Shown here piece by piece: positions 19,756 through 56,000 of a stretch of 64,000 nucleotides of DNA. Source of the stretch: Verrucomicrobiaceae bacterium (GTDB lineage Bacteria; Verrucomicrobiota; Verrucomicrobiia; Verrucomicrobiales; DEV007); contig JAACDM010000442.1 in assembly GCA_009936795.1 (NCBI GenBank), positions 1-64,000 on the forward strand, given 5' to 3'. The notes below the pieces were generated by a model. That model made no database searches and was not told the DNA's origin. It worked only from the letters and a program-made list of their open reading frames with translations. Within the stretch, counting starts at the first letter, position 1, and every line of letters starts with the position of its first letter. A program made the translations under genes and the position numbers.

Positions 19756-19792
19756 TAAAAACGCCCTGGCTGAATCTCTCCAACCAGGGCGT
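19756..19792 (-). terminator. Intrinsic terminator downstream of the pilin-repeat gene
   Basis: On the minus strand a perfect 9-bp stem (ACGCCCTGG paired with CCAGGGCGT) with a 14-nt loop is followed at once by TTTTA. It lies about 55 bp beyond the stop at 19846 and fits a rho-independent terminator ending that two-gene transcript before the FAD gene. Confidence 0.85.
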
Positions 19793-19845: not shown

Positions 19846-22767
19846 TTAGAAGTCGTCCGTAGTAAAGTAGCCCCACAAATCAGCTGTGGTCGTCGCTCCT
19901 TCATGGACGTGGAACTGATCGATTGTCGTGAAGCCCTGATCTCCAGTGTATCCGAAGGCAAGATTCAGCTCGTACTGGATACCATCAATCGTCGTGCTGA
20001 AGTCGGTATCGAGCGTTGAAATGCGGATATAGTCAGCATTCTGATCTTCCGTATTGTTATCCGAGTTCGTCGTGTTCTCCAACTCGATATTGATATCGAA
20101 CGACTCATTGGTATCTGGCAAAGTAAGAGCGATCGTGAGGTCCAAGGTGATATCAGTCGCCTGGGTGCCAGAATAGATGGAGCCATTGAAGTAATCCAAC
20201 GTGCCCAACCGGAAAAGCTCACCGGCTTGAACATTCTCCCACGCCGCGCCAATGTATTCGAGGTAGCTACCGTTTTCGAAACCAAGGTAGCCCGAAGACT
20301 CGCCCCACTCAAAGTAGTTGTCGTCGAGCACGTAGACCATACCAGAATCACCAACAGGGTCCTTAAACTGACCATAAGCTTCACCTGTGAACTCGTGAAT
20401 GAGGAATGGCAGGCCAGACGCTTCCGCACCGAAAGCCAAGTCCGGCGTGAGGTAGATACGCTCGTAAACAGCCGTCACCGTGCCACTATCCTGATAGTCG
20501 AGATATTCTAACGCACCCACGTAAGCCTCAATCGTCGACGGCCACGAAGTCAACACGATCGCATCGGAATAGTCGGTCCAGTCCCCACCATTAATGCGAT
20601 ATTTGAGTGCACCGTCGGAAGTAGCGTTCGAACTCGTCAACGTGATCCCTTGGTCAAACTGGCTCTTCACATAGCCACCAGCAGCGCGTCCGAAGACCGG
20701 GCTGTCGAGCTTGGGAGGAACAGTGAGCTCTAGCGAGCCGGTTACACTGATGTTGATCAGCTCAGGAATGACTACTGGCTCTGCTCTCGCAACGATGGTG
20801 ACACCCTCAGGGTAGTCAGCGACTGCCAATACAAACGGCTCCGTGTAATCCACCCACGTAGCTTCAGCATCCACGCTATAGACTAGATTAGAGAAACCGG
20901 GACTGTTTGTGTCCGTAAGCGTAATGGTCGCCGTAGGATACCCTTGCGGATTTAACACAGGGGAAGAGCTGGCAATCTCCGGAACAACCAGCGTTGCCTC
21001 CAGGACACCTACAGCCACGTCTTCGACCACACTCGTGAAAATATTGGCAGTGTGAATCGTGGGCACGGCACGTGCATTCACGATGACACCTACGAGATGG
21101 TCGAGCACCTCCAGGGCAACAGGCTCCTCATAGCTTAGCCACTCGCCACTATTATTGAGTTCATATTCGACAGCAGATACTTCAGCAGAATTGGGATTCG
21201 ATAGCGTCACCGTCACTGTCTGATGATCCAGAGGATGAAAGTCTGATTCGGACAATGCAATTCCTGGAGAGTCGAGCGTGACATCGATGGCGTCGACGAT
21301 CTGATTCACTTCATCGCTTTCGAGAATCGCTCCCGCGAGGAGGACAGGAATCGCCTTAGCGACCACATCAACTCCATCGGAGTAATCATCGATACCGAGA
21401 GTCACAGGCCCCTCGTAGTCTACCCAGTCAGCGCCGTTAAGCGAGTACTGCAGCGATGAAATTGGGCCGTCGTCTGTGTTTGGATCACCCAGAGTCACCT
21501 CGACCGTATCAGAATCAACGGGGTGGAGAGAGAGAGGTGCCACTGTTACTGTAGGGTCTTCCAACGTATGGGTGGTAGTAGGTAGCGGCTTCTCGACCGT
21601 ATCGCTAGCCAGGTAATACTCCGACCACTGAGTGGCCACTGACCTGGCGTAGATCGTTGTCCCTGCAATATGATCCTCGATCGCGAGGTCAAATGGCCTC
21701 TTATAGTCGACCCATTGACCAGAGCCAATGCTATACTGGACCTTGCCATGGTCGGTATTGTTTCCATGAGTAATTGTCACCGTAACAATCGCTTCATCCA
21801 GTGGGTGAAACGAAGGCGCGGACAGGGGAACGATAGGTATAGAAAGAGTTGTCGTCGTTCCCTCGTAACGGCCTGAGCGCACATAGCTGCTGTAGTATTC
21901 TTCGCTAGCCTCGGTCTTGACTTTAACAAACACAGACAAACTTCCACCAGGAGGAACCGTAACAGTCCCTCCATCTTCAACAAAGGTCCAATACGCGCCA
22001 TTGACAGAAGCATAAATGTCTGAGTATTCTCCTGGATTAGGGTTGAAGACGACGACTTCTAGACCAGACACACCAAATTCATTTAGAGGGAAGGTGCCTG
22101 GAGGAGGATCCAACGAAGGCTGCAGCAATTGCTGCTTAGTGTAGTTGCCAACGCTTGGATCAATGTCCAAGTTTGGATCTCCGCCAGCCGTCGTCACGAT
22201 GGCACTTGCAGACGCGCTCGTTTCCGTATCGAAATCCCAGACCCAGGCGCCTTGTGATTCATTAGTCGCCGAGAGTTCGAACATGGTTTCACGCTCTTCC
22301 GTAATAATGGTCGCAGGTGTGGCTGTAGAATCGATCTCAAACTCTTTAATTCCCTTTTGGCCACTATCCGCAATCCGAAAAGACTGGTTTGCTACATCCC
22401 AGATCACACGAAGTTCACCAGTCACCGCAGCCTCCTCGTCGCTCTGCTCGACCACTCGCAATCGTGGATCAACAAACGTCCCACCGAATCCGGCAATCTT
22501 TTCGCTGTTCGCTGCCATCGTCTTCATCTTGTCGACTACAGACTGTGCACTTGTTAGATTCTCCAGAGAGCCTCCTGAACTGACGTATATCTTCACTGCG
22601 GAGTTGAGCGAGGCGACCTGATTACCCAAGCGCTGCTCTTCAGCAACGTCGTTGACGTTGATCATCTTCATCATGGCGACACCCGAAATGACGCCTACCA
22701 CCGCGACGGTGGCAATCATCTGGATATAGCTCATACCGGCATTCCGCCTAACCTTTAAAGATTTCAT
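19846..22767 (-). CDS. Pilin-like N-terminus fused to Ig/chitobiase-like repeats and choice-of-anchor K domain
   Basis: A 973-residue surface or exported protein. The N-terminus (RRNAGMSYIQMIATVAVVG) has the basic leader, Gly before the cut site, and hydrophobic helix of type IV pilins and pseudopilins, but the residue at mature position 5 is Gln, not Glu. A pilin-like globular part runs to about residue 150. From about 225 to 750 there are around six similar beta-rich units, each with a WVDY-type core (GQWVDYKRPF, ADWVDYEGPV, EWLSYEEPV, ATWVDYTEPF, DWTDYSDAI). The last 200 residues resemble the choice-of-anchor K domain (FEWGESSGYLGF, RLGTLDYFNGSIYSGT). It follows the next gene by 39 bp and is ended by a terminator. 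Confidence 0.75.
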   Translation of the reverse strand: MKSLKVRRNAGMSYIQMIATVAVVGVISGVAMMKMINVNDVAEEQRLGNQVASLNSAVKIYVSSGGSLENLTSAQSVVDKMKTMAANSEKIAGFGGTFVDPRLRVVEQSDEEAAVTGELRVIWDVANQSFRIADSGQKGIKEFEIDSTATPATIITEERETMFELSATNESQGAWVWDFDTETSASASAIVTTAGGDPNLDIDPSVGNYTKQQLLQPSLDPPPGTFPLNEFGVSGLEVVVFNPNPGEYSDIYASVNGAYWTFVEDGGTVTVPPGGSLSVFVKVKTEASEEYYSSYVRSGRYEGTTTTLSIPIVPLSAPSFHPLDEAIVTVTITHGNNTDHGKVQYSIGSGQWVDYKRPFDLAIEDHIAGTTIYARSVATQWSEYYLASDTVEKPLPTTTHTLEDPTVTVAPLSLHPVDSDTVEVTLGDPNTDDGPISSLQYSLNGADWVDYEGPVTLGIDDYSDGVDVVAKAIPVLLAGAILESDEVNQIVDAIDVTLDSPGIALSESDFHPLDHQTVTVTLSNPNSAEVSAVEYELNNSGEWLSYEEPVALEVLDHLVGVIVNARAVPTIHTANIFTSVVEDVAVGVLEATLVVPEIASSSPVLNPQGYPTATITLTDTNSPGFSNLVYSVDAEATWVDYTEPFVLAVADYPEGVTIVARAEPVVIPELINISVTGSLELTVPPKLDSPVFGRAAGGYVKSQFDQGITLTSSNATSDGALKYRINGGDWTDYSDAIVLTSWPSTIEAYVGALEYLDYQDSGTVTAVYERIYLTPDLAFGAEASGLPFLIHEFTGEAYGQFKDPVGDSGMVYVLDDNYFEWGESSGYLGFENGSYLEYIGAAWENVQAGELFRLGTLDYFNGSIYSGTQATDITLDLTIALTLPDTNESFDINIELENTTNSDNNTEDQNADYIRISTLDTDFSTTIDGIQYELNLAFGYTGDQGFTTIDQFHVHEGATTTADLWGYFTTDDF

Positions 22768-22806: not shown

Positions 22807-24582
22807 TTAGTTCCCAATCACGGTGAAAGAGGCTGTCGCACTAAACGTCTCCGAAAGGAAATCCTCATCAGCCACAGTCACTTGCGCTGTGTTCGAGTAG
22901 TCACCAATTGCAGTCGTAGCTGCTGTCCGAATCGAGAGCTGAGTGGTGCCAGGCGGCAACTCCAGTCCATTGATGGTAGCCGTCGTATCACCGTTGGAGA
23001 AGGTAAGTGTAGGAACTTCTAGCCCGTCCGTGATCGGAAGGTAATTGGGATCCCATGTAAGACCTTCCGGAAGCGTATCCACAAAATTCACGGTCATCGC
23101 CACACTATTCGAATTCGTAAACGTGAAATTGTAATAAAGGGGATTGTTAGCAAACGCCGCATCGTGAATAGTCACTAACATGTTATCCTCAAACGATTCA
23201 GAAAAGAGCACATCATCGAGGGCGATGGCCCCATAATTGACCGAGACAACCTCAAAAGTTGCCGCCGTGTTCGTAGCTGTCGTGTAGCTGCCGCCAAACT
23301 CTTGCCATGAACCACCAGAGTCGATCAGCCCTGTAGAAAAGATCTCCGCACCATTTACCCGGAACGAGAGTTCAGCCATCTCCGAGGGGTGAACGTTCGC
23401 TACGAAGCCCGAAATGTGGTAGGTCGTGTTGATCGATAGGCCGCTAATGTTATCTTTTAAGAGCGCTCTGTTGTCGCCAGAGGCATTTCCAAGCAGGAAG
23501 TAGCCATAGCCACCCTCGTTTCGATCTTCTAAAGCAGACCAACTGGAGCTACCGGTCTGAGCATCATTTGTAAGGATAAAACTATTGTCCGAAACACTTC
23601 CGCTACTGTCATATGAAAAGTCCGTGTTAACGCTAGAGAGGGACGCACGGTCGCTCGAGCCTCCACCAAAGGTGCCGCTCGAACCTGCCGTCAAGACATT
23701 GGCTATATCTTGATTAATCGTTAGGAGAAATTGACCGGTGTATATCTGGGAAGGAACAATTGCCAAATTGCCAATATCGACTGAAGGAACAATCCAACTG
23801 CCATCGCCAACCTCTACTCCCTCAGACAAGACGACGCCCTCAGGTAAACCTGAGATATAATAGTCACTGGTGTTCTCATTCGCGCTTCTATCGATGTTCA
23901 ACGGAATCTCCTCCCCGCGGTTTGCCACAACGTCCTCCAAACTAAATTCAGTAGTAAAGGTACCAACTCCAGCATTGAGCACTGCCGTTGACCGAGTAGC
24001 GCTATCCTGGGTGAATGTTTCGGTAATCGACGTACCGTCGTCAAACGTAGCGGTCACCGAGACATCGGAAGCTCCAAAGGCACCTCCACTATTGTCAGAC
24101 GCTCCGAAGGTACCACCGCCATCTAGATAATCGGTATCATAGCCGAAGTTGAGCGAGTTGCCCGAATCGAAGTAACCACTCTCGAAATAGATACCTGCTT
24201 CGCCAGAGGATTGGTAAACATAGTCCGCCCAAATTCCTCCACCAAATGTCCTAGAACCAAGACCAATCGAACCTCCATTACCATTATTCGCGTCGAAGAC
24301 TCCACCACCACCGCCAGCATCAAGATCGAAGACTAATCCCGTGAGCGATGGGCCACTGCCATCACCGTCGTAAGAGACAGAGTAGAAGTAGTTGGCCCTA
24401 TAGGATGATGATCCTTCGGTAACAATCGTCAGAGTGGCGTAGGTGGGAGAAGCGATGAGGACTAGGAGGCCCATCAGAATCTTCCCGACAAGCGACCCAC
24501 AATCTGAGGTAGGTGCTGGTAGCATGTTCGCAGAGAGTTGATGTTGTTTGCGGATATTCATGACCGTGCTGTCGGCTATCAT
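22807..24582 (-). CDS. Secreted surface protein with DUF11-like C-terminus
   Basis: A 591-residue protein with an N-terminal hydrophobic helix (GKILMGLLVLIASPTYAT, residues 33-50), probably a signal peptide with a long n-region. It is rich in Gly, Ser, Thr and Asn; the middle (about residues 340-460) looks like a carbohydrate-binding beta-sandwich (SGFVANVHPSEMAELSFRV), and the C-terminal 120 residues resemble DUF11 or conserved repeat domains (FVDTLPEGLTWDP, YSNTAQVTVADED). The ATG at 24561 is a possible later start. It is the first gene of the pair with the pilin-repeat protein, so both may form or decorate one surface structure. Confidence 0.65.
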   Translation of the reverse strand: MIADSTVMNIRKQHQLSANMLPAPTSDCGSLVGKILMGLLVLIASPTYATLTIVTEGSSSYRANYFYSVSYDGDGSGPSLTGLVFDLDAGGGGGVFDANNGNGGSIGLGSRTFGGGIWADYVYQSSGEAGIYFESGYFDSGNSLNFGYDTDYLDGGGTFGASDNSGGAFGASDVSVTATFDDGTSITETFTQDSATRSTAVLNAGVGTFTTEFSLEDVVANRGEEIPLNIDRSANENTSDYYISGLPEGVVLSEGVEVGDGSWIVPSVDIGNLAIVPSQIYTGQFLLTINQDIANVLTAGSSGTFGGGSSDRASLSSVNTDFSYDSSGSVSDNSFILTNDAQTGSSSWSALEDRNEGGYGYFLLGNASGDNRALLKDNISGLSINTTYHISGFVANVHPSEMAELSFRVNGAEIFSTGLIDSGGSWQEFGGSYTTATNTAATFEVVSVNYGAIALDDVLFSESFEDNMLVTIHDAAFANNPLYYNFTFTNSNSVAMTVNFVDTLPEGLTWDPNYLPITDGLEVPTLTFSNGDTTATINGLELPPGTTQLSIRTAATTAIGDYSNTAQVTVADEDFLSETFSATASFTVIGN

Positions 24583-38881: not shown

Positions 38882-40045
38882 ATGCACGGCCTCATCATTC
38901 ACGCTGACTTACACCAGCCAAACCAGCACTGTCCCGACGCAACCCTTGAGATCCAGGATGGTCGGGTTGCCGCGATCCACGAAGCCGGTGCCGCGACACC
39001 CTCGCTACCAGTATTTTTCGATGCTCAGCATCAGCTCACCTTTCCAGGATTCGTCGATATCCATACCCACGGAGCGAGCGGAAGAGACGTCTGTGATGGC
39101 TCGCCTGGTGCCCTCGAAGCCATCGGGCGCGCCAAGATTCGGGAAGGCGTCACCACATTCCTCCCCACCACCCTGACCATTCCCCGCGACGAATTGCAGA
39201 AGGTGGCGGGGCTTGCGGCGCCCTACATGGCTAATCCGACGTTCGCCAAAGCCCCAGCCCTCCACATCGAAGGACCATTCATCAATCGCAACTGCGCCGG
39301 AGCTCAGAACCCTGCGCATGTCCGCCCCCCAGATTCCGAAGAAGTACGTGAACTTCACAAGATTACGCCGGTAGGACTCGTCTCCATGGCACCAGAGACC
39401 AACGGAGGGATCGCGTTCATCGAGGAAATGACGGCTCTCGGCATTGTCACCTCGTTAGCACACAGCGCGGCCACGTATGCAGACTTCCAAGCCGCACGGC
39501 AAGCAGGTGCCAAGCATCTCACTCATTTCTGCAATCAAATGACCGGCTTACACCACCGCGAGATCGGTCTCGTCGGTGCCGCATTGCTCGATGATGGCGT
39601 TCTCATCGAAGCCATTTGCGACAAGATCCATCTCTGCCCAGAAATGATTTCACTGACATTCAAACACCTCTCAATCAACCAAATGATGCTGGTCACAGAC
39701 TCTATGGCCGCCTCTTGGATGAATGAAGGTAGCTACGACCTAGCTGGTCTCGAAGTTCACGTCAAAGACGGCGCCGCTCGCCTCACATCTGGCGCCCTGG
39801 CCGGGAGTACACTGCGTTACAACCACGCAGCGCGAAACGTGCACCGTATCACCAATATTCCATGGCTCGATCTCACCAAAGCCTGTGGCTACAACCAAGC
39901 CAGGTCACTGGGACTCGAGGGCGGATCGTTAACACAGGGATCACCGGCTGACATTGTAATTGTCAATGATGAATGCGAACCAGTCGCCGTCTTCGTCGAT
40001 GGCGTGGACAAATTGCCTGAGGCCTCGACGCCCCCTATGGAGTGA
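38882..40045 (+). CDS. nagA: N-acetylglucosamine-6-phosphate deacetylase
   Basis: A 387-residue amidohydrolase that removes the acetyl group from GlcNAc-6-P. Metal and catalytic residues can be followed: GFVDIHTHG (His61, His63), HIEGPFIN (Glu130), TSLAHSAA, HLTHFCNQM and LVTDSMAA (catalytic Asp). The start at 38882 gives the usual N-terminal beta-sandwich, and the longer frame to 38840 is not needed. It is divergent from sdhC and its last 11 bp overlap the end of the convergent surface-protein gene. No nagB is adjacent; a role in amino-sugar recycling is inferred from the family. Confidence 0.93.
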   Translation: MHGLIIHADLHQPNQHCPDATLEIQDGRVAAIHEAGAATPSLPVFFDAQHQLTFPGFVDIHTHGASGRDVCDGSPGALEAIGRAKIREGVTTFLPTTLTIPRDELQKVAGLAAPYMANPTFAKAPALHIEGPFINRNCAGAQNPAHVRPPDSEEVRELHKITPVGLVSMAPETNGGIAFIEEMTALGIVTSLAHSAATYADFQAARQAGAKHLTHFCNQMTGLHHREIGLVGAALLDDGVLIEAICDKIHLCPEMISLTFKHLSINQMMLVTDSMAASWMNEGSYDLAGLEVHVKDGAARLTSGALAGSTLRYNHAARNVHRITNIPWLDLTKACGYNQARSLGLEGGSLTQGSPADIVIVNDECEPVAVFVDGVDKLPEASTPPME

Positions 40046-43000
40046 CCACTCGGTAAGTCAGGCGAAAGAAAATCCGTTCGTCAGCTGCGCCAGGAATGCG
40101 GGCTTCGCAGCTACGCTCCCCATCGATGACTGGGCCATTCGTGACATTGATCGGGCGGACATCGCCTGAGGGGCCGTTATTATTCTCATACCAATCTGTG
40201 AGATTTGGTGACCAGTTGCCATCGGCATCTGTACCATTATTGTCGAGGGAACGACGCCAGCTGAAAACCCACTCGCTGGTGACCTCATCGAATTCGACAG
40301 TATCTAACGGAATATCATCGTTAGCGTTCGGATCACGCCCATGATAAGACTCGCCAAGTGTCGAGTTTCCATCCTCATCGCTGTCCGCCTGCTCGCCCCA
40401 ACGAATAACTTGCTCGCCAAAGTCTACTAGAATCTCGCGCTGAAACTTCGAATTGAGCCATTGCTGGTACGGTGTACCCTGAATGTCAATTACCTGAGAC
40501 GTCATCCCGGTAAGCCCGCCATTGTCTGTCGCCCTAAGGCGAACATCTATTGTAGCCACGAGGTTCGGCTTGCAACGCACGACAAGTTCTTTCGTTCCAT
40601 TGTCGACCGCGATCATCTCAAAAGCCTGAACATCTCCTAACACGGTGACAATCTCGTAGTCCAAGGTTGAAGAAGCTTGTTCGGCATCGGAGAAACCAGC
40701 CGTGATATCGATTTCACCTTCGGGTCCATTCACAGCTGGTGTTCTTATCGGCAGAGCCAGCCCTTGTGGCGGTGAATTCTGCTTCTCAACGATGAGCTCA
40801 ACCTTACAAGTTCCCCTATTCTGCGACGAGTCGTAAGCTTCGATCAGAATCTCATAAACTTCTGGGCCGGTGACTACCGAACCCGCTGGCGGCGACTGGG
40901 TGATTGTCAGATTAGTAGCCGCGTCAATGTTATCAAAGATACTCGACATCGCAATCACGTCCGGCACGTCCACCTCACAGGGTACGCCATCGCAAGTCAC
41001 GGTCACCTTCTCAGGACAGATGATGGTCGGCGGCTGCGTATCCTGGAAACAGAAACCGCCTGGGTAGCCATAGGAATCAAACTCATCGAACCCGTAAATC
41101 GTTAGAGCAAAGGGACTGCCCGTTGTGGCGAAGCTGTAAAGGAAGCTAGTAGAACTTGGCAGAGGAACGCGAACAAAGTCACCACCGCTATTCGGAATGG
41201 TTCCAGTGACGGCTCCGCTCACCGCAAGAATATTTGTGCCATTAAGCGTGATCACGCCGAGATCAGCAGTACTATCTGCGATAACCGTAGCATAGCTCTG
41301 CGGAAATTCTTTCGCCGGGGGAGTACAGACTAGATAGCCCTTTAGCCAAGACTTGCGCGGCTGGATGAGTGTCATGAAGGGATCCCCATCCACGACACCA
41401 TCATAGTCAGAACTCTGGGAGAATTGCGCCACGGAGATCTTCCCCTCGGCACCGATTGAAGCCGGTGTGGTCATGGTGAACTCATGGATCTCACCACGGT
41501 CTAGAATCACATTCGTCAGCGTTGGATTGTAAATACTAACAAACGTTCCATCTTTTAGAGCCGTGATTCTCACAAGATCGCCGCCGCGAGTCATGAGTGG
41601 CGCGATCCGATAATTCGTTCCCCAGGCAGGCTCAGGCAAGAGTTGCTCGACTAGCGTGTCACAGAACCATTGGGTAGGGGATTGGATATTTGCACAGCGG
41701 TGACTCCCAAACACGCCAACGGGCTTGTCAGAAACGATGCATGTCCCAGCAACATCTCCCGGCGCGTCCGCTTCGTTTCTAAGCTGATAGGTTTCGCCCC
41801 TCTGAAGTAGGACGTCGAAGGGAACGCCAGCAGTGTAGGTGCCAATAGTGGTCTGCGGCGTGATCGTCACGGTGGTATTGTTGTAGGGTGCCACGACAGC
41901 AAACTGAGAGCCCTGAAGAATGGGCAACGAACTTTGGACGTTCTTGTAGGTCATGACGACGTACTCGGTACCAAGGCAATCAAGCGGGAGTCCCAAATAG
42001 CCGTCTGTGCTATAGTCCTGATGATTCTGCGCATACACAGAAACAAAGTTCTGAGCCACAATGCGAATTCCCTTCCCTTCACGCTTATCGTTCCCCGCAA
42101 GTTCGACCAAGGAAGGAATCGCCACGACAGCCTTACCGAAGCCATCGAGTGTGTAGGCCTTAGGAAATCCAGGGACACTCATACCGGGAATCGTAACAAT
42201 ACCAGTCTCAAAGCGTTTGCCTACAATGCAGAGAGAAAGATTGATTGGAGCGCCAGGCTCCTCCTCGTAGTTTTCAGGAAATGCCAGCCAGAACTCTTTG
42301 CCCCGATGCGTCTTCGCACAATCCGCGTTGTCTGGGTCCGGCTCTTGCTGCCCGGCCTCTAGACACAGCTCAGGACATATCAAGAATCGGTCTTCGTTTA
42401 CGGTCGCATTCAAGGCGTGAATGGCGAGAATGTTATTCCCCTGCCTGAGAACGCTTGGATCAAGATCGAACGTTTCTGGACTTAATGCCAGACAATCTGC
42501 ACGGTTCTTCAGCGCGCGAGCATTCTCGTTAAGCGTACTTGGAGCATTTCTCTTCAGCACCAAAGAGCCATTAATATAGGCCGCGAAACCATCGTCATAA
42601 CGCATGCGCAGGGTGAGCTTGGAACCTGCACCCGGAAACTGACTGAGAGCAAAAGAAGCGCGCATATAAAGCCCAGGCCGCAGCCCCTTCATCTCGGCTT
42701 CCACATCCCGAGTAATATAAGGATCATACTTGCCTTGACCTCCAACACCAGAAGCCTCTTTGAACGAGACGCCTTGAGCACCAGCTTCATAAAGATCCCC
42801 TATTTCACTTAAGGTGAGCTTCTTCTTCCAAATAGCAACGTCGTCAAGCGTCCCGCAGAACTGCCTACCCGCGGGCGTGGGGTCACTCCCTATGATCAGT
42901 CTATCTCCATTCCCTGAAGTATTAAAATCTTCACCATTAGGAAGCGCGATCGGACCCTGCGGTGCCACACCATCAAAGTAAGCTTCAATCTCATCCGTAT

Positions 43001-44075
43001 CACCCTTAGCACAAACCGTAAAAGCAATATGGTGCCAGAGACCATCCTCAAGCGACGGCAACACCAGGTCGTATCGATTGCCTTGCGCGCTGATCAAACG
43101 CACTCCGGTGGACTTTGTCCCTTGATCGTCCTTCCGATAGATCATCCAACCAGGTCGTCCCGGCTCATAAGCACCGTTTGAGGCAAGGATCTGAATACCG
43201 TTGTCAGGAGGAAACCTTTTATCTCCGATTGCCCATACAGAAACAGCAAAGCCTGCATCTTTGCCAGGATCTAGATCCGGATGTATTGCATGTCCGATAA
43301 ACCCTCTACCATCCCCTACTGAGCAACTAATGCTCATGCCTTTATCGATTTGAGCAGCTGCCACCTGCCATCCAGTTCCTCTAGGCTCTCCGTTATGAAT
43401 ATTCGTTGATCCACAGACGTCCAGGGAGACGCCTTGATCCAACGTATCGCCATCAAGGGGTTCGTAGAGAACCAAACCCTCACAGAGACTGTTAGGAGCC
43501 GCATCGTAACCAATGCAAAGCGGACTGGATGACCAGTCTGCGGCAGGTGGGTAGCTGCCCATGGTCCAATCGCCTTGCACGTTGTCATTGGGAACAATGT
43601 AACGGACGGTCGTATTGGGCCCGACCAAGAGCGCACCATCACACTGGCAGTAGTCCGTCTGATCCGAGGCCGCGGCGACCTGCTCCCCATTGTTAAATAG
43701 CCCAACGTAGGGCACCGAACAGGGAAACTGAAAGTTTGTATGCAGCAATTGATCACTGCTTGCCGGAGGTCGACGATCCTTCGTCGAGGTAAAGATAATC
43801 ATTTCCTTACCAGCTTCCAAAAAATACCCATCCGGAATCGTCCATTTCGTTGGGTTGGCTACCGCATCGGTGAGGTGCCAACCAGAAAGATCGGTCGCCT
43901 CCACAGCTTGCAGCACGATAAACGAGGGCAAATCGCCATCCTCATCCTCAGTGTCGACATTCGCAGCACCCGCGAAGACGCTTTTAAAACTAACCTTTGG
44001 TTGTTGTCCAAATGCTTGCGGCAAAGTGACGGCAAAGCAAAACAAAGGTAAGAGAAAGAGGAAAGCTTTCATCAT
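40035..44075 (-). CDS. Surface protein with lamin-tail, LamG and IgGFc-binding domains
   Basis: A 1346-residue exported protein. The start at 44075 (ATGATG) gives a signal peptide (MMKAFLFLLPLFCFAVTLPQ). A lamin-tail domain follows (DLSGWHLTDAVANPTKW), then a concanavalin/LamG-like domain (AVSVWAIGD to LDDVAIWKKKLTLSEI, about 250-430). A PA14-like region leads to an IgGFc-binding-type domain at about 590-1005 (GKEFWLAFPENYE; GVFGSHRCANIQ), a HYR-like domain (PPTIICPEKVTVTC), and a C-terminal tail. The C-terminus has an acidic DSDEDGNSTLGE segment. It lies 17 bp after the giant LEPR-XLL gene and is probably cotranscribed. Adhesion to cells or glycans is inferred. Confidence 0.82.
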   Translation of the reverse strand: MMKAFLFLLPLFCFAVTLPQAFGQQPKVSFKSVFAGAANVDTEDEDGDLPSFIVLQAVEATDLSGWHLTDAVANPTKWTIPDGYFLEAGKEMIIFTSTKDRRPPASSDQLLHTNFQFPCSVPYVGLFNNGEQVAAASDQTDYCQCDGALLVGPNTTVRYIVPNDNVQGDWTMGSYPPAADWSSSPLCIGYDAAPNSLCEGLVLYEPLDGDTLDQGVSLDVCGSTNIHNGEPRGTGWQVAAAQIDKGMSISCSVGDGRGFIGHAIHPDLDPGKDAGFAVSVWAIGDKRFPPDNGIQILASNGAYEPGRPGWMIYRKDDQGTKSTGVRLISAQGNRYDLVLPSLEDGLWHHIAFTVCAKGDTDEIEAYFDGVAPQGPIALPNGEDFNTSGNGDRLIIGSDPTPAGRQFCGTLDDVAIWKKKLTLSEIGDLYEAGAQGVSFKEASGVGGQGKYDPYITRDVEAEMKGLRPGLYMRASFALSQFPGAGSKLTLRMRYDDGFAAYINGSLVLKRNAPSTLNENARALKNRADCLALSPETFDLDPSVLRQGNNILAIHALNATVNEDRFLICPELCLEAGQQEPDPDNADCAKTHRGKEFWLAFPENYEEEPGAPINLSLCIVGKRFETGIVTIPGMSVPGFPKAYTLDGFGKAVVAIPSLVELAGNDKREGKGIRIVAQNFVSVYAQNHQDYSTDGYLGLPLDCLGTEYVVMTYKNVQSSLPILQGSQFAVVAPYNNTTVTITPQTTIGTYTAGVPFDVLLQRGETYQLRNEADAPGDVAGTCIVSDKPVGVFGSHRCANIQSPTQWFCDTLVEQLLPEPAWGTNYRIAPLMTRGGDLVRITALKDGTFVSIYNPTLTNVILDRGEIHEFTMTTPASIGAEGKISVAQFSQSSDYDGVVDGDPFMTLIQPRKSWLKGYLVCTPPAKEFPQSYATVIADSTADLGVITLNGTNILAVSGAVTGTIPNSGGDFVRVPLPSSTSFLYSFATTGSPFALTIYGFDEFDSYGYPGGFCFQDTQPPTIICPEKVTVTCDGVPCEVDVPDVIAMSSIFDNIDAATNLTITQSPPAGSVVTGPEVYEILIEAYDSSQNRGTCKVELIVEKQNSPPQGLALPIRTPAVNGPEGEIDITAGFSDAEQASSTLDYEIVTVLGDVQAFEMIAVDNGTKELVVRCKPNLVATIDVRLRATDNGGLTGMTSQVIDIQGTPYQQWLNSKFQREILVDFGEQVIRWGEQADSDEDGNSTLGESYHGRDPNANDDIPLDTVEFDEVTSEWVFSWRRSLDNNGTDADGNWSPNLTDWYENNNGPSGDVRPINVTNGPVIDGERSCEARIPGAADERIFFRLTYRVVTP

Positions 44076-44092
44076 TCTAACAGTAGGGTTAA

Positions 44093-47000
44093 TCAAAGGG
44101 CGTTCTCCACATTGAGGTTGGGCAGTGTGAGTGTGAGATTCGCTGAAATCACTTGAGTCAGAGCATCAGTTAGATCGACAAAAAGTCCGTCGATCAGGAG
44201 ATCGTCGATTCCTCCACCTCCGTACTCGAAGACCTCATCCGACCCGAGAGACTGTAAAGTATCAAAGAGGTAGGCGTCAGATCCAGCGCCACCAAAGAGA
44301 TCGTCGTTCCCCGCCCCACCCTCAAGGATATCCGCGCCAGAGCCACCAAACAGCAGATCATTGCCAACTAAACCAAAAAGCTGAACGCTTCCCGAGGCTG
44401 CCGTCGCATCTATCGTATTGTTAGATACGCCCCCCGTGAGAATTGCCCGGTTCATTGAGTCAAGAAGATCGAGTTCCGTACCGATATTCAGTGACGTTGT
44501 TGTGAGAATGAAGTCGGCATCTCTCGTTTCAACAAGAATGTCACTAGCACCTCTACCATAGAGCTCGTCATTCCCTGGACCGCCTGTGATTCGGTTGACC
44601 AGGGCGTTCCCGCGGATGGTGTCGTCTTGATTCCCACCAATGACGTTCTCGATACTTGCCGCGGTATCGAGGTCGAGTCCAAGATTTGTGGGATGCACGA
44701 TTTGAAGCGCAAGCTCCTCTAAATCTACGCTAATGGACTCGCTAGATGTCGAAGAGAAATCAAGCGTGTCGCTTCCACCTATCTCGGAAATAGTGTCATC
44801 TCCAAGGACGAAATCGACATCAAACACGTAGAAATCATCCCCCGTATTCCCCTCAAGAGTATCGTTATCGGCTCCACCGATCAGGTAATCTGTACCGGTT
44901 CCGCCCCTGAGGGTGTCTCCCCCTCCTTCACCGCTCAGAACCGTGGTGCCTGTGAACCCACTCGCATCGATCACGTTCCCGCTCGCGCCGCCAGTCAACT
45001 GCAACTCTTCGATACCTAAAAGGCTATCGATCTCAGCATCAATGGTGAGTGCAGCATCCGTAGCCGTAAAGTCTGCATCTGTAATTTCCAACACGCGATC
45101 AACTCCGCCTCCTCCTGCGAAGACGTCCGCTCCGCCGAGCCCGGAGAACACATTATCAGCAGCGTTACCAGTGATCTGATCCGCTCCTCCTCCTCCGATG
45201 ACATTTTCAATCTGTATTCCAACAAGCCAGAGTGTCGCTCCGGGGGCCACAGGTTGAGGGCCAGCATTCCCGAGATCGACAGTGACACCTTGTGTTCCGG
45301 TCATCGAGAAGTCCAAAGTATCAGAGCCGCCCGCGTCAAAGATGATTTCCACACCAATGACCAAGTCTGCGTTGAAAGCGTAGTGGTCATCCCCTGCGTC
45401 GCCGTAATAGACATCATTTGAGGTCGTGCCAAAGAACCAATCATCTCCATCATCTCCATGGAAGATCACTCGCTGGGCGGTAAAGCCAGAAGCATCAAAC
45501 GAGTTGTCACTCGCACCACCCTCAAGATGAACTTCGTTCATATTTGCCAACGAAATGCCTGTCGTGACTCCTCCAACTGCAATTGCCGAATCAGTGAGGA
45601 CCATGTCAGCGTCCTGGCTAAAGTAGATTTCATTTGTGCCACCCGCGCCATCCAAGGAAACGTTTACTCCAGTCCACTCACTAACAGTAAAGGTATCATC
45701 ACCGGGACCGCCCAGGAGACTCGCGTCCTCAACCCCACTGAGTGAATCCGTTTCAGAGAACACGTCGGCACTCGAATTGAGGAAAGCATCGTCTAAAATG
45801 AACTCGATGCCGCCGAGAGACGCCGTTTGTTCGATCAGCATGTCCGTGCCTGTGCCGCCATCGACTTGATCGTCACCAGCCAACGGTGTGATCGTGTCAT
45901 CGTCAGCACCTCCATTCAACACGTCAGACCAAATGGTTCCTGTAATCATGTCGTCACCACCGGCACCATCGAAGGTGAAGTTCCCCCGAGCTACCATCAT
46001 TGGCGTAAGCGGACTGAGAGCCGAGCCGTCAATCGTATTTGCACTGACCCCTCCAGTGATCTCGAAGTTTTCCACATTGACCACGCTAATGGTGTCAGAA
46101 CTCGCCGCACCAACATGAGTCACGCTAACATCAACGCCAGGAACACTAAGATCTCCAGGATTGGCATCATCGAAGACGAAATCGGCATTGGCTGCTTGGA
46201 TAAAGAGGTCTGAGCCGTGTCCACCACCATCAATCAGGGCACTGCCGGTCCAACCGGTAAGATCGAAGGTGTTTGGAAGCGCCCCGCCCGTGAGACTAGC
46301 AAATTCCACGTCCTGTAACACGTCGTAGTCCGTGCCCTTGGTCACATTGGTATCCGTGAGCGTGAAGTCGACGTTCTCCGACTCGGAAAAGGAGTCGAAT
46401 CCAGGGCCACCGTCGAGTCTATCATTACCTTCTCCGCCATCAAGGAAGTCATCTCCTCCGAAGCCTTCTAACAAGTCATTCCCAGGACCACCACGCAGAG
46501 TATTATCGAGGCCGTTGCCAGTGATCTCGTCGTCCATGTCACCGCCGATAACTTCTTCAAACCCACCTGCCTCGATGACCAAGGTGAGATTGCCAATCAC
46601 TTGGTCAGCTGCAGGACTCGTTCCAAAGATGTTCAAGTCAACGATCACGGGGAAACCCGTCGTGGCGGAGAAGTCTAACACATCATGACCCACTAGGTCC
46701 GTTGGATCTTCAAAAATGGTCTCCTTGCCCCAGGCCTCATCGGCATCGAAGGCATAAATCTCATTTCCTGAACCACCCGCAAGGCTATCATCACCAGGAC
46801 CGCCACTCAGCGTGTTGTCACGAGCGTTACCAGTGATATCATCATCGCCATCGCCACCGATCACCGCGTCGATGTCTTCACGCTCGAAGATCAAGCTAAT
46901 GGGGGCGCCCGTATAGAGTGGGGTTGGCGTATTGAGCGAGCTAAGATCGGCAATCAGATTCTGAGTCATTGCCGAGAAGTCGAGCGTGTCGAATCCGGGA

Positions 47001-50000
47001 TCGTCCGCTGCGATCGTCGCCGCATCGTACCCCACCACCGTCACATTACCGGTGTCCGTCGGCAGGAAGATGAAAGTGTCATCTCCAGGTCCACCGAGGA
47101 GCTCGTCATCACCGCCGCGGCCTTCGATGGTCACATCGCCATCGTAATCGCTAACGTCGATCTTGTTCCCACTGGCACCACCAATGAGGTGCGCTTCCTC
47201 GACACTATCGATGCTGTAGATCGATCCATTGCCGAGCGTCAAGGCACTGCTCTGTTCGAAGGTGAAGCCACTTAAAAGACTCGGATTGTAGGTCGCGACC
47301 AAGTTGAACACGCTGACCGTGTCCGTTGTCAGGGTGAAGGACGACGCTAGACTGGTCACATCGCTGAGCCCCACTGTACCACTGCCTTTACCGAGGCTGA
47401 GGTCGAGCGTTTGAATCACGCCGCTGACAGCACTAGCAATAAGCCCTGGCGAAGAGGAAAGCCCGGACCCGACCAGCGTCATGTCCGTGTCATTCTCGAC
47501 AACGAGCTTGTCGATACTCGTGTCACCTTCGATTTCCGCATAGCCAGACCAATCAGTCAGCGTGAACGTGTTCGCTCCAGCCCCACCAACCAAACGGGTG
47601 TGCTCGAGATCGATCAGGGTGAAACGAGACTGGGAAAGAGGCTGATCACGGAAATCGAGGGTCAAACTATCATTTCCACTGAAGAACGGATCGATATCAT
47701 TCTGCACCAAGGTAAAATCGGCGTCCGCTTCTGCCAGCAGATAGTCGAATCCATGACCACCATCGAGCTCGTCGTTGCCGAGTTCAGCAATGAGGTAGTC
47801 ATCGCCCATGCCAGCGAACAGGAAGTCGATCCCGCTCTCGCCATTTAGGAAGTCATCACCCCCTTGGGCAAAGATGAAGTCGAAACTCGGACCGCCGGCG
47901 ATGACATCGGCTCCAGGTCCACCGCTAAACTCGAGTTCAGAAAAGGGATCAAGTCCTTCACCAGTCGACATGCCAGCAGGCGCTGTTGCAGGAAGGAAAC
48001 GTGCCGGTTGAAGATGCGTCGCGATGTTGCCGGAGTCTCCGAGGATGAGGTCCCAATCATCACCACCGTCGATGAGGTCATTGTCCGTGAGACCCGCACC
48101 AAGATGCTGGATGACCAAGACGGACTCGTCCAATGGCCGCCCCGTAGCAGCACGGATCGTCAAGTCAATACTGACACTATCGCACTCAGGAATAAAACCG
48201 CCACCAAGGATCGGCACCACGAAGGTTTCCGTCAATTCGCCCACTTCGAAGTGCACCACACCGGAGACCGATTCGTAGTGCGTCCCAGCGATGGCGGTAT
48301 CGGCAGCGAGCGTATAGACAACCGCAGACTGTCCTTCGGCATTTCCACGAGTAAGCGTGACGATCGCAAGACTATCATCCTCGCTCTGATTCACGGTGTA
48401 GACTGGCTTATTGAAGGTCACGCCCTCAGAAGCAGGCGCAGGCGCTCCAAGCATCAATTCCACATCGACCGTTTCCGTCCCACCAGACGCTGGCGAGTAG
48501 ATTGCGTAAGAGGTGCCAGTGTCCGGATCAAGCTCCACGGTGACCTCAGACCAACCTTCCGGAATCTCCACGTTCACGCGGTAGTTCCCAGGGAATGTTT
48601 GGAAGTCGTAGTTGCCTGAGTTATCTGTGAGAGTCACACCCACTTCGTTGCCCTTGTCATCGAAGAGATGGACCACGATATCCTCCGCACCGCCGCTGCC
48701 GGATTCGGTGATCGTTCCTTTGATCGTCGCATCGTTGCCCATGGCCGAGGTGTCGACTCCGAAGATGTAGCCATTGAGCGGCAAGACCCACGAATCGGCA
48801 GAAGCATCGGCATCGAAGATCGTTAGTTCGGCATCATAAAAGCCGTCCAAATTGATTGGCGAATAGTGGTTCGTCGCCGTCTGCCAGTGCCCACCCACGA
48901 TGTGATCGTCACCTGCACCACCTTCGATGTAATCATCACCCGGTCCGCCGAAGATCGTGTCATCCGTACCACCACGGCCCACGGTGCTGTTCTCCGCCGG
49001 AGCAATGGTTTCAAGTGGCGTTGGCTCGTACCCAATGTCTTCAACCAGGAAGAGTCCGGTGCCACCTTGGAAATCGATACTTTGACTATCATTATCCGTC
49101 GTCGTCTCAAAGCCCGAGAAGAAGTTGAATATTAGCCCGCCCTTCACCGGCGATCCCGTGAGGGAGTCTTCCAACACCTCGATGGTCACCTGGCCATAAT
49201 GAACGCTGGTAGTGAAGACCCCATCAGCATCAGTCGGCACGGTGACATCGGTACCCTGGGCGTCACGGACTCTCACATCCACGCCATCCATGCCGTATTC
49301 GCTGTAAGTGGCATTCGGATCACTGCTGAAGTCTTCGAAGAAGCCGTTGCCATTCTTGTCGTGGAAGACACGGCCAGAAATGCTGCTCGTTTCGTCGTCG
49401 AGGATTGTGCCAATCGCCGTCTCAGCACTCTCATCGATCACGGCATTGACAGGATTCTTGATCCAGACCCGAAGAGATTCAGGCGCCTCAAGCAGACCGT
49501 CATCGGTGATCGTCAAGCTTACGGCTTGCGTCCCTGGCGCGGCAAAGACAAGCGTTCCAGAAGTCGATCCGCTGTAGTCAGCAGCTTCCGTGGTGAGATC
49601 GTCAATCTGGAAATCGACCTCCACGTTATTCTGGAAGTCGCCTGTAACCGTCACATTGAAGATCAACCCAAAGGCAAGTCCCTCTGTGTTCGTCCCAAGC
49701 AACGGAGTCAAGGTGACGACTGGCAAAGGCTCGTCATCGACAATGGTTAGCGTGGCTTCGAACGGCGACGCACTCGCAGGTCGACCCGTCGGTGAGCGCA
49801 AGCTCATGTGGACCGTTTCATTGCCTTCCCAATCCGTGTCTTCGATGGTTGGGATATCAATCGTCTTGACGTATTCGCCAGAGGCAAAGCTCACGACCAG
49901 TTCTTGCTCGACGTAGTCCACGCCTCCCGTGGCCGTGATGCCCTGCGTCGTGAAGATCACGACGGCATCTCCGGAGGTTCCCGGACTGCGGACCAACGTG

Positions 50001-53000
50001 ATCTCCGCCGTCTCACCTTCTTCCACACTGTAGAATGGCTCGGCAAACCGGACGGAAGAGAGTGCATTGCCGACGATCAGCGCATCGTTGGCCGCAATGT
50101 TCACAATGCCGTGGTTGTGCTCAATGTCAGCGTTGTCCGCTCCGATGATGTTGACAAAGAACTGCTCAGCACCTTCTGGCGCGAGATCATCCACCGTCAC
50201 AATTTCGAATGTCTTGGTCAAGTCGCCTGGAGCAAACGTGAGGGTCGAACTGTCATCATCTATGCTAGCGGAAGCAGAGTGATAGTCTGGCGATGCCAAG
50301 AGAAGGAAGAACAAGGCCCCGGTATCGGCATAGTTTACCGCCGTGCCGTTCTGCGTGGCGTAGGTCACGGTGATTTCTTTCTCGCTCGCGAAGAGGAAAC
50401 TACCCGTCGGGTCAAGCAGCCTAACTTCGAACTGCGGCGAGTCGCCCTCAACGATGTCGGTGGCATGCGGATCCCTGCCTGACGGCACGACCGGCAAGAG
50501 CTCGACCCTGACAGGATCGTCGTCATCAGAAATGACACCGACTCCGTGGCCATCATCGATCACCGCTTTGTCGGCGTCGAAGAGCTGGACGAAGAAATGC
50601 TCATCGTGTTCATCGACCACGTCGTCGTTCGTCGAAATCATCACGGTCTTCTCCGTTTCACCTGGCAGGAACGTCACCAGCTCATCCAAGGCGAGGACTG
50701 CCTGGAAATCCGCTCCCAAGGTCGCATAGTTCGCCTCTTTCTCCGCATCGTAGACACTCGAATCGACCACCTGATGCCGAACCGTAATGGTGCTTTGGCT
50801 AGGATTGGACAAACTGATCGTGAAGGTCACATCAGTGGCCTCGCTGTTGCCCATGTTCGAGTCGTTGATGCTCAAGGCCGGGATTGGATCGTCTTCAATG
50901 ATCGTGCCGATGGCCAAGGTGTCGTCGAGCAGCGTTGGCAGGCCAGCGTTTGCGGGCTCCAACAAATTGGACAGTTGCAAGGTCAGCCCCTCATGCGCGC
51001 CTTCGTAGCTAAAGTCGCCTAACACAGGAACTTTGATCGTCCTGGACTGTTGACCGGGCTCGAACGTTAGCGTGCCACTCGTCTCGGTGAAGTCGACGTT
51101 GTTCGCCGCTGAACCTGGTGCGGTCGCATAATCGATCGTGAAATCGAAGGTCACGGCCCGCGAGAGTGTGACGACAAACTCCAATTCCGAGTCTGTATTG
51201 TTGCCCTCAATCACTTGAGCATCGGCGACAGAGATGGTGGAGTTGCCAATGAAACCAGCCGTGACATCGCCTCGAGATTCATTCGCATTCAGCGCAAACA
51301 CGTCGGTGATCCCGATGTTAGGATCGCCCGCCGCATTGAAGTCGACGTTCACATCCGTGTTCGCGTCACTATCGATGGATTCATTGTCACCTTCATTGAC
51401 CAGCGTGAGCACGAGGCCGGCTCCCGTGCCGCTGTCATAGGCTGATTCGAAGACCATGAAGAAACTATCAGGATCCAATCCAGTAGACTTAAAATTGCCG
51501 CGCGAGTCTGTGACCGTCGTGTCGACGATCGCATCGGTCAGAAGCAACGCGGCAGAAGGCTGAACCAACTGGATTTCCACACCAGCCAAACCGCCTTCAC
51601 CCTCGTCACGAATGCCATTCGCGTTGTCATCGAGCCAAACGGATGAACGGATCTCAATGCCGGTGTCGCGGTCACCCGTCTTGCCGTGCGCATCGTCACC
51701 GAAGAGTTCATCGTCGCCAGTGCCACCATCCATGAAATCGTTATCGTCTTCCTCGATGACCTCGGTCTCACCGCTGATCATGAAGTTTCCACCGAAGAGG
51801 AAGTCATCCCCTTTCCCGCCAAAGAGGATATCGTAATTACCCCCACCGATGAGCTCGTCGTCACCCGCGGTGTCCGCATCGTCGTTCAGGCCGATGTCAT
51901 TCACATCAATCGACGCCGGAGGCGCGCCGTTGGCGATATTGGTAATCTGAGTGAGCAGCGTCGCCTTGTTAAAGGCATCGAAGGTGTCACCGATCAAGAG
52001 ATCAACACCTCCATGTCCACGCAACGAGTCTTCTCCCGGACCACCGACGAGGATGTCGTTGCCCGCGCTGCCATTGAGGGTGTCGTCTTCTCCACCGCCA
52101 TCAAGGAAGTCATTGCCGAGGCCTCCATCGATGGTGTCCGCACCTTCACCACCTTCGACATCGTCATCTCCCGTGTCAGCGTCGATCTTGTCATTGCCAC
52201 TGCCCCCCTTAATAATGTCGTTGCCAGCGTAAGCCGTGATCGTATCGGATCCGGCATCACCGTTCAGCTCATCATCGTTGGCCGTGCCCGTGATGACATC
52301 GGAACCGTCGCCGCCGTTGATCGTGACGGACGCTTTGCCCGCTGTGATGGTGTCATTGCCAGCGTCTCCATTGAGCACCAGACTTGGGCCTTCGCCCGTT
52401 ACCGTGATGGTGTCGTTGCCGGACCCCCCATTCACCACACCCGAACCAATCACATCGGTGTCTTCACCACGATCCTTGAGTGTGATTGTATCATTGCCCA
52501 CGCCACCATCAATATCCACCTCGGCGAGCACACCTAACAAGTCGATGATGTCATTTCCATTGCCGGCGTCTTCGACCATAATTAACGTCACATTCTCAAA
52601 CTCGGCCGTGTAACCAGCAAAGGCCACTTCCACTTTCTCACCAGCACCATCGCCTTCAAGATGCGTCACCGTGAAGTGCTCAGCATCATCGGTCGTATCG
52701 ATCTCCAAGCGATCGGCAGCGCGAGATCCGATGTTCAAGGTCAACGTGCCACCTGACTGTTCTGCCAAGATCGGCTCAGGACAGGTGATCTCAAACTCGA
52801 ACAGCGTGAATCGACCAAACTCCCAGGTCTCCTCGATCTTGAAGAAGAACAGGTCAACCGTGAGGAACGCTTCGAGGAAGACGTAGATCTCGCCGTGAAT
52901 ATTGAAGATGCACCGTGGGTCAATTTGCGCCTGGGAAATGATCTCACTGATGCGCACACGCCCATCTTGATTCGGATCATTTAGGTCGAATCCAACTTCC

Positions 53001-56000
53001 AAGCCAAGCCCGCCACGCACGCCAACCTCAGCAACAAACAAATCGATTACGACGCCGGCAAAGACCTCACCGTAAAGTCGCAATTCGTCCCGATCATTGC
53101 CATTGGAATCGAAGTCCTTGATGTAGAACCCATCAAAGATATCGATGACCTTGTTAGACTCGATAAACTTTTGAATACCGAACGTGTCATAACCAAAGCC
53201 CCAATTGATCTCCACCCCGATGTTCCCGCCAAACTGCGCCGCCAGAGGTCCCAAGATTGGAATGTTGATCGCGAACTGAGCTTCCGCCCGGAAGGTCGGC
53301 ATATCCCATTCGATCAGGGCCACCGGCTTACCTGTGAAGAGGCCCATGAGCTCTAACGGATTATCCCAGATCGGTATGCTGAAGTTGTCGATGCTTCCGA
53401 CGTCACCTGCAAATCCCGCACTGGCCTGAGCACTGGCATCAAACTCGGGATCCGCCGCAGCGTTCTCCAAGAAGTCATCTGGCACCAGTTCCTTCACCGC
53501 CGCCGCCGTATCGAATTCCCCAGAGGCGCTTTGCTCAAGAATGAAATCACCCAACGGAATCACGACATTCGCACCCGTAGGAATGTTGTCGGCAAGCTCG
53601 ATCACAAAGAGCGCCACATCGATGAACTTGCGCACGCCCGGATCGAGGTAGCCAAAGGACTCCATCACATCGAGCAGATTGATATCGCGCCCAGCTAGAT
53701 CCGAAAGGATCGGAATCGGCGCGGTCACCGCTTCGATGATCGGCCGCACAGGGTCGACGGTTTCATCGATTTTGTTGAGAATCGGGCCTAGGAAGTCCGA
53801 GATCCAGGTACCAAGATCGATACCCAAGTTGTTGAACCCAAGTTCTGGTGTCGTCGCCCCGTCGCTTAGGCTCCATGACCAATCGAGGTTGAAGTCAACG
53901 ACCACACGAGGGAAGACTGCACTCGTTCCAAAGCCTCCCGAAAGCTTGAGGTTAATGTCAGCAACCGCTTCGATGTCCGCATCCACGATGTCGCCGAAGC
54001 TCACGCCCGATCCGGTCAGCTCAGCGAACGTCAGCTTGCCGTCATCATTGGGATCCATGATATCGACGTGCAAGCCTCCAGAAAACATCGATGGCGCGTC
54101 TGGATCATCCATGACCGTCAGTCCAAGGAAGAACAACTCACCCGTGACATCGAGCCCAGGGATCGCGGCTTGGAAGCCAACAACGATTTCTTCCGAACTG
54201 CTCGTGTCGAAATAGAAGCCGTCCTCCTTGTTTAGCCCAAAGCCCAGGTCGAAGTCGAACCCGAGCATCAGCTCCACCTTGCCATCTACTTCCAAGCCAA
54301 AGCCTGGCACACCAATATCGAGATCGAGGTCCGCATTGATGAGATCGAGCCCCCACGAAATGTGCAGGTCGACAATGAGACCTTCGTCACAATCGAGCGA
54401 AACATCCAATTGCTCGGACCCCTGATCAGGATCGAGCGCCGATCCGTCTTCATTCACCAGGACATTCAGGCCACCAGGTCCGAGCGAATTCCAGAAGACA
54501 TCTTTCAGCGCCGCCTCGATCGTTGCCGTGGCACTGCCCCCGTTGGCATCTAGGGCTTCCCGCACATCAGCAAGCATGCCATCGCGGAAGCGCTGGATGA
54601 AGTCGACCTGGTTGCCCAGCGTGTTGCCGATCAGCGGGAGGTCGATGTTGTTGGCCGCGCTCTCCAGGCCATCTTGAATCGTTCCTAACAAGCTATCGAG
54701 ACCATCGAGTAAGAGGCCAGCACTGCTATCGAGGATCGCACAAAGATCCAAGTTATCGAACATCGCGCCAAAGTCCGGCGTGATGATGGTGATCTTGGCC
54801 ACCTTGCCTGTACCATCATTCCCAGAGAGATTCGCCGCACTATATCCGCCGATTCCACCGATGGCCGAGATGACTGAAGAAGCCGTCGTTTGACCTGAAT
54901 TGATCGTTACGGTCAACGTATCTCCAGCAAGTGAAGCCGACGCACCGGTGCCGACAACCGGATCCTGCTTAAACTTCACTTCAAAGTCCGCATTCGGCCC
55001 CGTCACCTTGAAGTCGTTGTTATCGCCGCGGAACGCAAGATCTACAGTGAAGTCAGCCTCAGCCTTATCGCTGACAAACACGCGAATGATATCTGGGATA
55101 TCGACAACGAGGTGATTGTCAGGATAGCCGTCTCCGTTGTCGTCCGCATCCGAATCAAGTGGAGTGCCTTCGAGTGGCGCGTAGATCGGCAAGTCGGCGG
55201 TCAACCCAGCCTCGGCCGTGAAGCCAATGCTCTCGTGACTGAAGATCGTCTCGTGGAAGTAGTGGCGACCATCCCCGTTGTTGTCTTTCAGACCAAAGCC
55301 GACGTTGGCCTTGCCTTCGGTATCGGGGTCACCATCCGCATCGAAAGTGACCTCACCGTCGCGGACAAAGATTCCCACGACCGATCCGAGCGAAGCTTCA
55401 AACTCAAGATTCGAACCCAACACTTCCGCCTCAAGCACCACACCTGTGGTGTCATAGAGGAACGCCGTCACCGCACATGGATTCGTGATGTCCAAACCAA
55501 ACTCCAAGGTCGCCGTCGCCGTCGCCGCCACATCGAGCATGCCATCGCCACTCACCGTGACAAACTCCGTTGCACTCTGAAGGAATGTAAGGGCAGCGCT
55601 GTTATCACCCTGGATCTGATTGAGAAGATCGTTCACATCGAACTGCAGATCAATCTGATCGCCGTAACCGACCATGTAGTTGAGCGAGAATTTGATCGCT
55701 GTCTTGGTCACGAAACCTTCGCCGCCACCTTCAGTCAGCGTCGCGCTCCACGGCGTGGTGACGGCGCCAAAGGCTGTGATGATGGCGTTCGCCGTCGTCT
55801 TACCAGGATCAACATGAACGGTCAGCGTTTCTGTAACCGCGTTCCACTCCACCAGCGACTGATCGCCACTGACGTCGTGGCTACCGAGAATCCGAATCGT
55901 GGCATCGGTCAGCCCCGTATTCGCCGTGGTGAACTTCAGCCCGTTGTTCGTACCGTATGGATTAAACGTCGCTTCCAGGTTGGGCCCAACCATCGTGATC

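Follow-up and report, generated by a model that had tools for sequence, protein, structure and literature searches.

On the minus strand of the window, by which we mean the whole 64,000-nucleotide stretch of a Verrucomicrobiaceae bacterium genome that was analysed, a long open reading frame joins a pilin-like N-terminus to a stem, a series of repeats and a choice-of-anchor domain, and directly follows a gene for a probably secreted protein. The features of the locus are these:

19846 to 22767, minus strand: gene for a predicted 973-residue modular type IV pilin of a family here called FAM (open reading frame with an ATG start; three further genomes of the genus have an orthologue).
22735 to 22767, minus strand: prepilin-type leader, residues 1 to 11, with Gly at position -1, read from the sequence.
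22720 to 22722, minus strand: Gln codon of mature position 5 (codon 16, CAG).
22576 to 22734, minus strand: pilin helix alpha-1, residues 12 to 64, placed by comparing the family profile with solved pilins and with the pil4 pilins of the operon described below.
22063 to 22575, minus strand: conserved stem module, residues 65 to 235, with motifs GG-L, V--K-K, D-R, W, F and W-W.
20452 to 22128, minus strand: repeats R1 to R6, residues 214 to 772, from an NCBIfam match and self-comparison; the last residues of the stem also fall within R1.
19873 to 20385, minus strand: choice-of-anchor K domain, residues 795 to 965 (NCBIfam choice_anch_K).
19761 to 19792, minus strand: terminator-like hairpin of 14 pairs followed by TTTT, directly 3' of the FAM gene, from a scan that overall did not exceed shuffles (2 hairpins found, shuffle mean 3.5).
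22807 to 24582, minus strand: partner gene, 591 residues as called, ending 39 bp before the FAM gene.

The leader, MKSLKVRRNAG, has 11 residues, several of them Lys or Arg and the last Gly, and is followed by MSYIQMIATVAVVGVISGVAMMKM, so that a charged leader precedes the stretch of about 21 hydrophobic residues typical of pilins. The mature N-terminus reads MSYIQ, with Gln in the fifth place where a pilin would carry Glu. The initial annotation had pointed to exactly this combination of pilin-like leader and helix with Gln at mature position 5, and it is borne out by the CAG codon. The same residue is present in the orthologues from three other genomes of the genus (stems 56-82% identical), and is therefore no sequencing slip; leader and helix are likewise conserved across all four orthologues.

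The remainder of the protein is modular. The K domain named in the initial annotation was recovered with an E-value of 2.2e-25 and a score of 89.5 bits (cut-off 30), and it stops 5-8 residues short of the C-terminus with no anchor behind it. The six repeats claimed there hold up in part: R2-R5 (residues 313-685) are mutually alike far above shuffles (z 16-26) and R6, scoring z 5.5-10.6 when compared with these four, is a diverged copy, but R1 (residues 214-312) is doubtful, with z from -0.3 to 5.1 and only one of five comparisons beating all 200 shuffles. NCBIfam assigns the repeats as OmpL47-type (E 3.7e-15), and the OmpL47 literature, among the matches listed, concerns Leptospira. Taken alone, the window protein matched nothing in Pfam-A at E 1e-3 and did not match the GFxxxE model, gspG reaching an E-value of 0.12 only, and its PDB search gave one chance-like match only. 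A scan of genome contigs added L037 (81%), a genuine relative, and a short match of doubtful standing; structure models built from two-row alignments of the window protein and L037 had mean pLDDT values of 35.9 and 29.3, too low to show whether a pilin globular fold follows the helix.

The wider family is more informative. When the first 180 residues were searched against 57 related genomes, 39 gave a match at E 1e-3; 37 of these fell below 1e-10 and are counted as FAM genomes, and G006 and G008, which have weak helix matches only, are left out. The counts for family members describe a sample, since its 60 regions were chosen mostly among the top entries of a longer list of matches. The fetched regions yielded at least 71 rows at blastp 1e-9 and at least 75 by profile, L037 being left out because L039 carries the same gene on a contig of equal length. 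Among the matches listed, 61 members are full length with a start and span 171 to 2833 aa, 13 of the full-length members exceed the window protein in length, and position -1 in 71 rows is Gly in 37, Ala in 31 and a gap in 3. Conserved stem positions extend to about residue 226, well past the pilin helix. Homology of helix alpha-1 to pilins, weak for the window protein alone, emerges from the family profile: it found 24 PDB sequences at E up to 1, of which 22 bear the names of pilins, geopilins, pseudopilins or pilus proteins, with PilE1 the best (9.4e-9), and it aligned with the pil4 pilins of the operon at probability 98.5 and E 3.3e-15 over 79 columns. Pfam N_methyl was found in 24 of 59 members among the matches listed, and for the stem beyond the helix the family profile matches no solved structure. 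As judged from sequence, then, FAM is a pilin family, and it is an undescribed one, whose stem of about 230 residues combines the pilin helix with a new module and carries exchangeable modules behind it. A search of the phylum, capped at 10 scored candidates per genome, gave a match at 1e-10 in 45 of the 288 genomes sampled; six of these matched over most of the stem, all from the window's order, and the other 39 by the pilin helix alone.

Domain scans of the family covered 59 of 71 rows (those of 370-1300 aa with no unknown residues). Among the matches listed, the K domain occurs in 37 of 75 members, and VWA (5/59), DUF5122 propeller (6/59) and CHB_HEX_C_1 (8/59) modules occur in others; some members carry cadherin-like or Ig-like domains. 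None of the 61 full-length members among the matches listed has a TM-like stretch in its last 60 residues, and the C-terminal transmembrane sorting signal associated with choice-of-anchor proteins is missing from all 61. The K label changes 16 times on the best tree, which was built quickly and has many weak branches, and 14 times after 8 cut or broken rows are dropped, with 3-4 changes forced by well-supported branches. The label for residence in the pilus operon changes five times, or twice if three contig-edge rows are counted as operon. On contig C289 of G010, at about 20-46 kb (L046 and L047), eight or more FAM genes stand in tandem, and three of these genes carry Gln5.

That operon gives the family its context. 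In 17 of 34 loci FAM immediately precedes a PilT-like ATPase gene, reading in the same direction, and is there the first gene of the operon; the other 17 ATPase loci have the secretin adjacent without FAM (9), a contig end (3) or neither (5). The 'PilT' label denotes a best match to pilT_fam at 270-277 bits, under its cut-off of 319, and the labels pilM to pilX were assigned by order, size and look, those of M, N and O by order and size only. The order in G014 is FAM, the ATPase, four unrecognised genes in would-be M, N, O, P order, then prepilin-type genes, a PilC-like and a PilB-like gene, with the secretin divergent. The better assemblies likewise have the M/N/O/P-slot genes, minor pilins and PilC-like and PilB-like genes after the ATPase, many with a divergent secretin. 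Across the 57 genomes, FAM and the ATPase are found together in 34, FAM alone in 3, the ATPase alone in none and neither in 20 (Fisher 1.5e-12 by genome and 1.0e-5 by genus, values that ignore kinship); the three FAM genomes lacking the ATPase are 62, 80 and 86% complete. In-slot members fall into two groups, 12 with the K domain and 5 without, four of the latter (L045, L055, L071, L095) having by eye delta-60/propeller-like tails, a repeat family matched by six of the 59 scanned members. With its relatives in this fixed slot, the window protein is probably an exchangeable pilus head and not an ordinary membrane-anchored protein.

The operon itself appears to be a little-described one for the Verrucomicrobiota. 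Its M, N and O slots (for example L088:10397-12480) are conserved and occupy alignment-complex positions by gene order; their proteins matched no Pfam or NCBIfam family, and the M and N slot proteins found nothing convincing in the PDB. Verru_Chthon cassette models gave sub-cut-off matches to two operon pilins and no match to FAM members. The operon also encodes another large subunit without Glu5, a pilX-like protein that is a rival for the tip.

Position 5 varies with gene location. Among the matches listed, 64 of 75 members have Glu there, eight have Gln and one has Asp; two members lack the position, which leaves Glu5 in 64 of 73 scorable rows. All 17 in-slot members keep Glu5, and on the tree, among the matches listed, it was lost about three times, in displaced members only, making FAM a natural test of the role of this residue. 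According to PMC5207764, pili are still assembled with the E5Q form of TcpB, a Gln5 TcpB starts the pilus yet performs poorly in retraction-linked functions, and tip subunits of the GspK type are described as having no Glu5.

The window gene is one of the displaced copies, sitting outside the pilus operon. The ATPase and secretin frames lie 157 bp apart in the window's own genome (G000), 54 bp in G003 and 128 bp in G001, the contig of G002 ending there; the FAM slot is therefore empty in three of the four genomes of the genus. The search for pilus assembly genes elsewhere, which the initial annotation had proposed, found the ATPase and secretin of G000 on C212, a PilB-like gene on C595 and a prepilin peptidase on C732. 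Two other FAM copies in G000 (C593 and C38) carry TAG stops, and the window gene is the only stop-free FAM there among the matches listed. Given those stops and a MAG that is 95% complete, it is the candidate FAM subunit, if the pilus of G000 uses one. The M-slot gene of G000 is split by an in-frame TAG (L121:2078-2080, G000:C212) and is unbroken in G001-G003; the break makes a working pilus less likely in that one genome: the pilus of G000 may be decaying, or the MAG may be wrong at this point.

The partner gene occurs in 4 of 57 genomes, all of the window's genus, and adjoins FAM in all four, the orthologues in the three other genomes each lying behind it. The alignment suggests that it starts at a Met at about 24525. 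Its product has a probable Sec signal (by eye) and weak CBM_4_9 and DUF11-like matches, and no anchor was seen in it.

The reading that we regard as reasonably likely is that the window protein is a modular minor pilin, probably the tip subunit of the pilus made by the PilT-type operon. The leader would be cut by prepilin peptidase, whose gene is present, and helix alpha-1 would pack into the type IV pilus of the operon located elsewhere in the genome, as suggested by linkage and co-occurrence in the relatives. The repeats may serve to project the K domain outwards from the filament, where it would be a putative binding head, and the displaced copy probably substitutes for the empty first slot of the operon in this genus. 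Gln5 would suggest use at the tip rather than in the shaft, because a first subunit needs no Glu5, to go by what PMC5207764 reports for TcpB. The co-directional upstream secreted protein is a plausible, if speculative, tip-riding partner.

The initial annotation had wavered between a pilus-tip protein and a display protein that uses the pilin leader for sorting. A pilus subunit, probably at the tip, is favoured because the N-terminus of the family matches solved pilins and the relatives hold a slot in a pilus operon; that pilin context, whose lack had been named as grounds for refutation, is present at 17 of the 34 ATPase loci. Sorting alone we consider unlikely. The protein, whether processed or not, would then be an inner-membrane one with repeats and K domain in the periplasm, and Gln5 would mark lost polymerisation, consistent with its conservation in a genus where the gene is outside the operon and with the repeated loss of Glu5 in displaced copies alone, among the matches listed. 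Yet all 17 in-slot relatives combine Glu5 with a pilus context, leader and helix are conserved in four orthologues, and tip pilins tolerate loss of Glu5, as PMC5207764 reports.

It is also conceivable, if quite improbable, that the protein belongs to a type II secretion pseudopilus or to another type IV system of the same genome. G000 offers several such hosts, with 7 secretin and 11 T2SSE matches, and the weak gspG match points the same way; against this, FAM co-occurs with the PilT-like ATPase, its relatives hold a fixed operon slot, and a PilT-like gene favours a retractable pilus. That it is an ordinary Sec-secreted repeat protein anchored through its choice-of-anchor region, as the repeats and the name of the K domain might suggest, is very improbable in view of the N-terminal family match to pilins (the normal-signal-peptide reading was weighed by family profiles), the absence of a C-terminal anchor or TM-like tail, and a K domain whose end lies no more than 10 residues from the C-terminus in 23 of the 37 members that have one, among the matches listed.

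Considered as a modular minor pilin, the window protein has known counterparts. Modular pilins number more than 1,200 proteins in 264 architectures, the most extreme one named in PMC8179133 being 860 aa, against FAM lengths of up to at least 2833 aa. PilB of Streptococcus sanguinis, as described in the same source, resembles FAM in grafting a functional module onto a small pilin stem, and shares the VWA module with 5 of 59 FAM relatives among the matches listed (PMC8179133). FAM differs from PilB in its much longer stem module, multi-repeat spacers, choice_anch_K head and dedicated operon slot, and the window copy in its Gln5.

TcpB and CofB, with TcpF and CofJ, offer a second likeness: a large minor pilin with a secreted-protein gene nearby, with position 5 dispensable for starting the pilus and, in the TcpB-TcpF pair, a secreted protein that rides on the minor pilin (PMC5207764 and PMC9565799). 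The likeness comes without demonstrated sequence kinship, docking of the partner is putative here, the window protein has no Glu5, and the FAM-linked operon has a PilT-like ATPase where the TCP system has none.

Like GspK-type tip pseudopilins, the window protein is larger than the major subunit and has no Glu5. Whereas those are encoded in the minor pilin cluster, the window gene is displaced and its in-slot relatives are first genes; the extra part of FAM is a set of C-terminal repeats, that of GspK an insert in the pilin fold, and the operon already encodes a large subunit that lacks Glu5, the pilX-like one. Choice_anch_K/PEP-CTERM proteins usually have a C-terminal sorting anchor; the K domain is common to them and to the window protein, which has a pilin N-terminus and no such anchor.

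Modular pilins are known; what is new is a lineage-wide family built on a long stem of its own, with a slot in an operon and with copies displaced from it, and this adds to them an operon-linked design of constant stem and swappable heads. Text searches of the literature, with most subscription journals outside their reach, returned no paper on the FAM family, nothing joining choice-of-anchor with Verrucomicrobia or with PEP-CTERM, and nothing pairing Verrucomicrobia with prepilin and pilin-like. Judged by titles or abstract openings, no Verrucomicrobia minor-pilin paper dealt with FAM, and among the matches listed for type IV filaments with a secretin and PilT, none mention Verrucomicrobia. 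A bolder reading, which we find rather doubtful, is that of an order-wide pilus with an exchangeable head whose slot copy was often moved and multiplied into sets of heads sharing one stem, the head in the window's genus being a Gln5 tip-only starter with a secreted passenger; if true, it would link pilus assembly to passenger delivery in this genus.

Two other large frames lie on the minus strand of the window. One, at 44093-62155, encodes 6020 aa from a TTG start; RTX nonapeptide repeats, Calx-beta and SdrD_B-like matches lie in its C-terminal 3000 residues, and no Pfam family matched the N-terminal 3020. The other adjoins it at 40035-44096 and encodes 1353 aa with IgGFc_binding, Laminin_G_3 and HYR matches.
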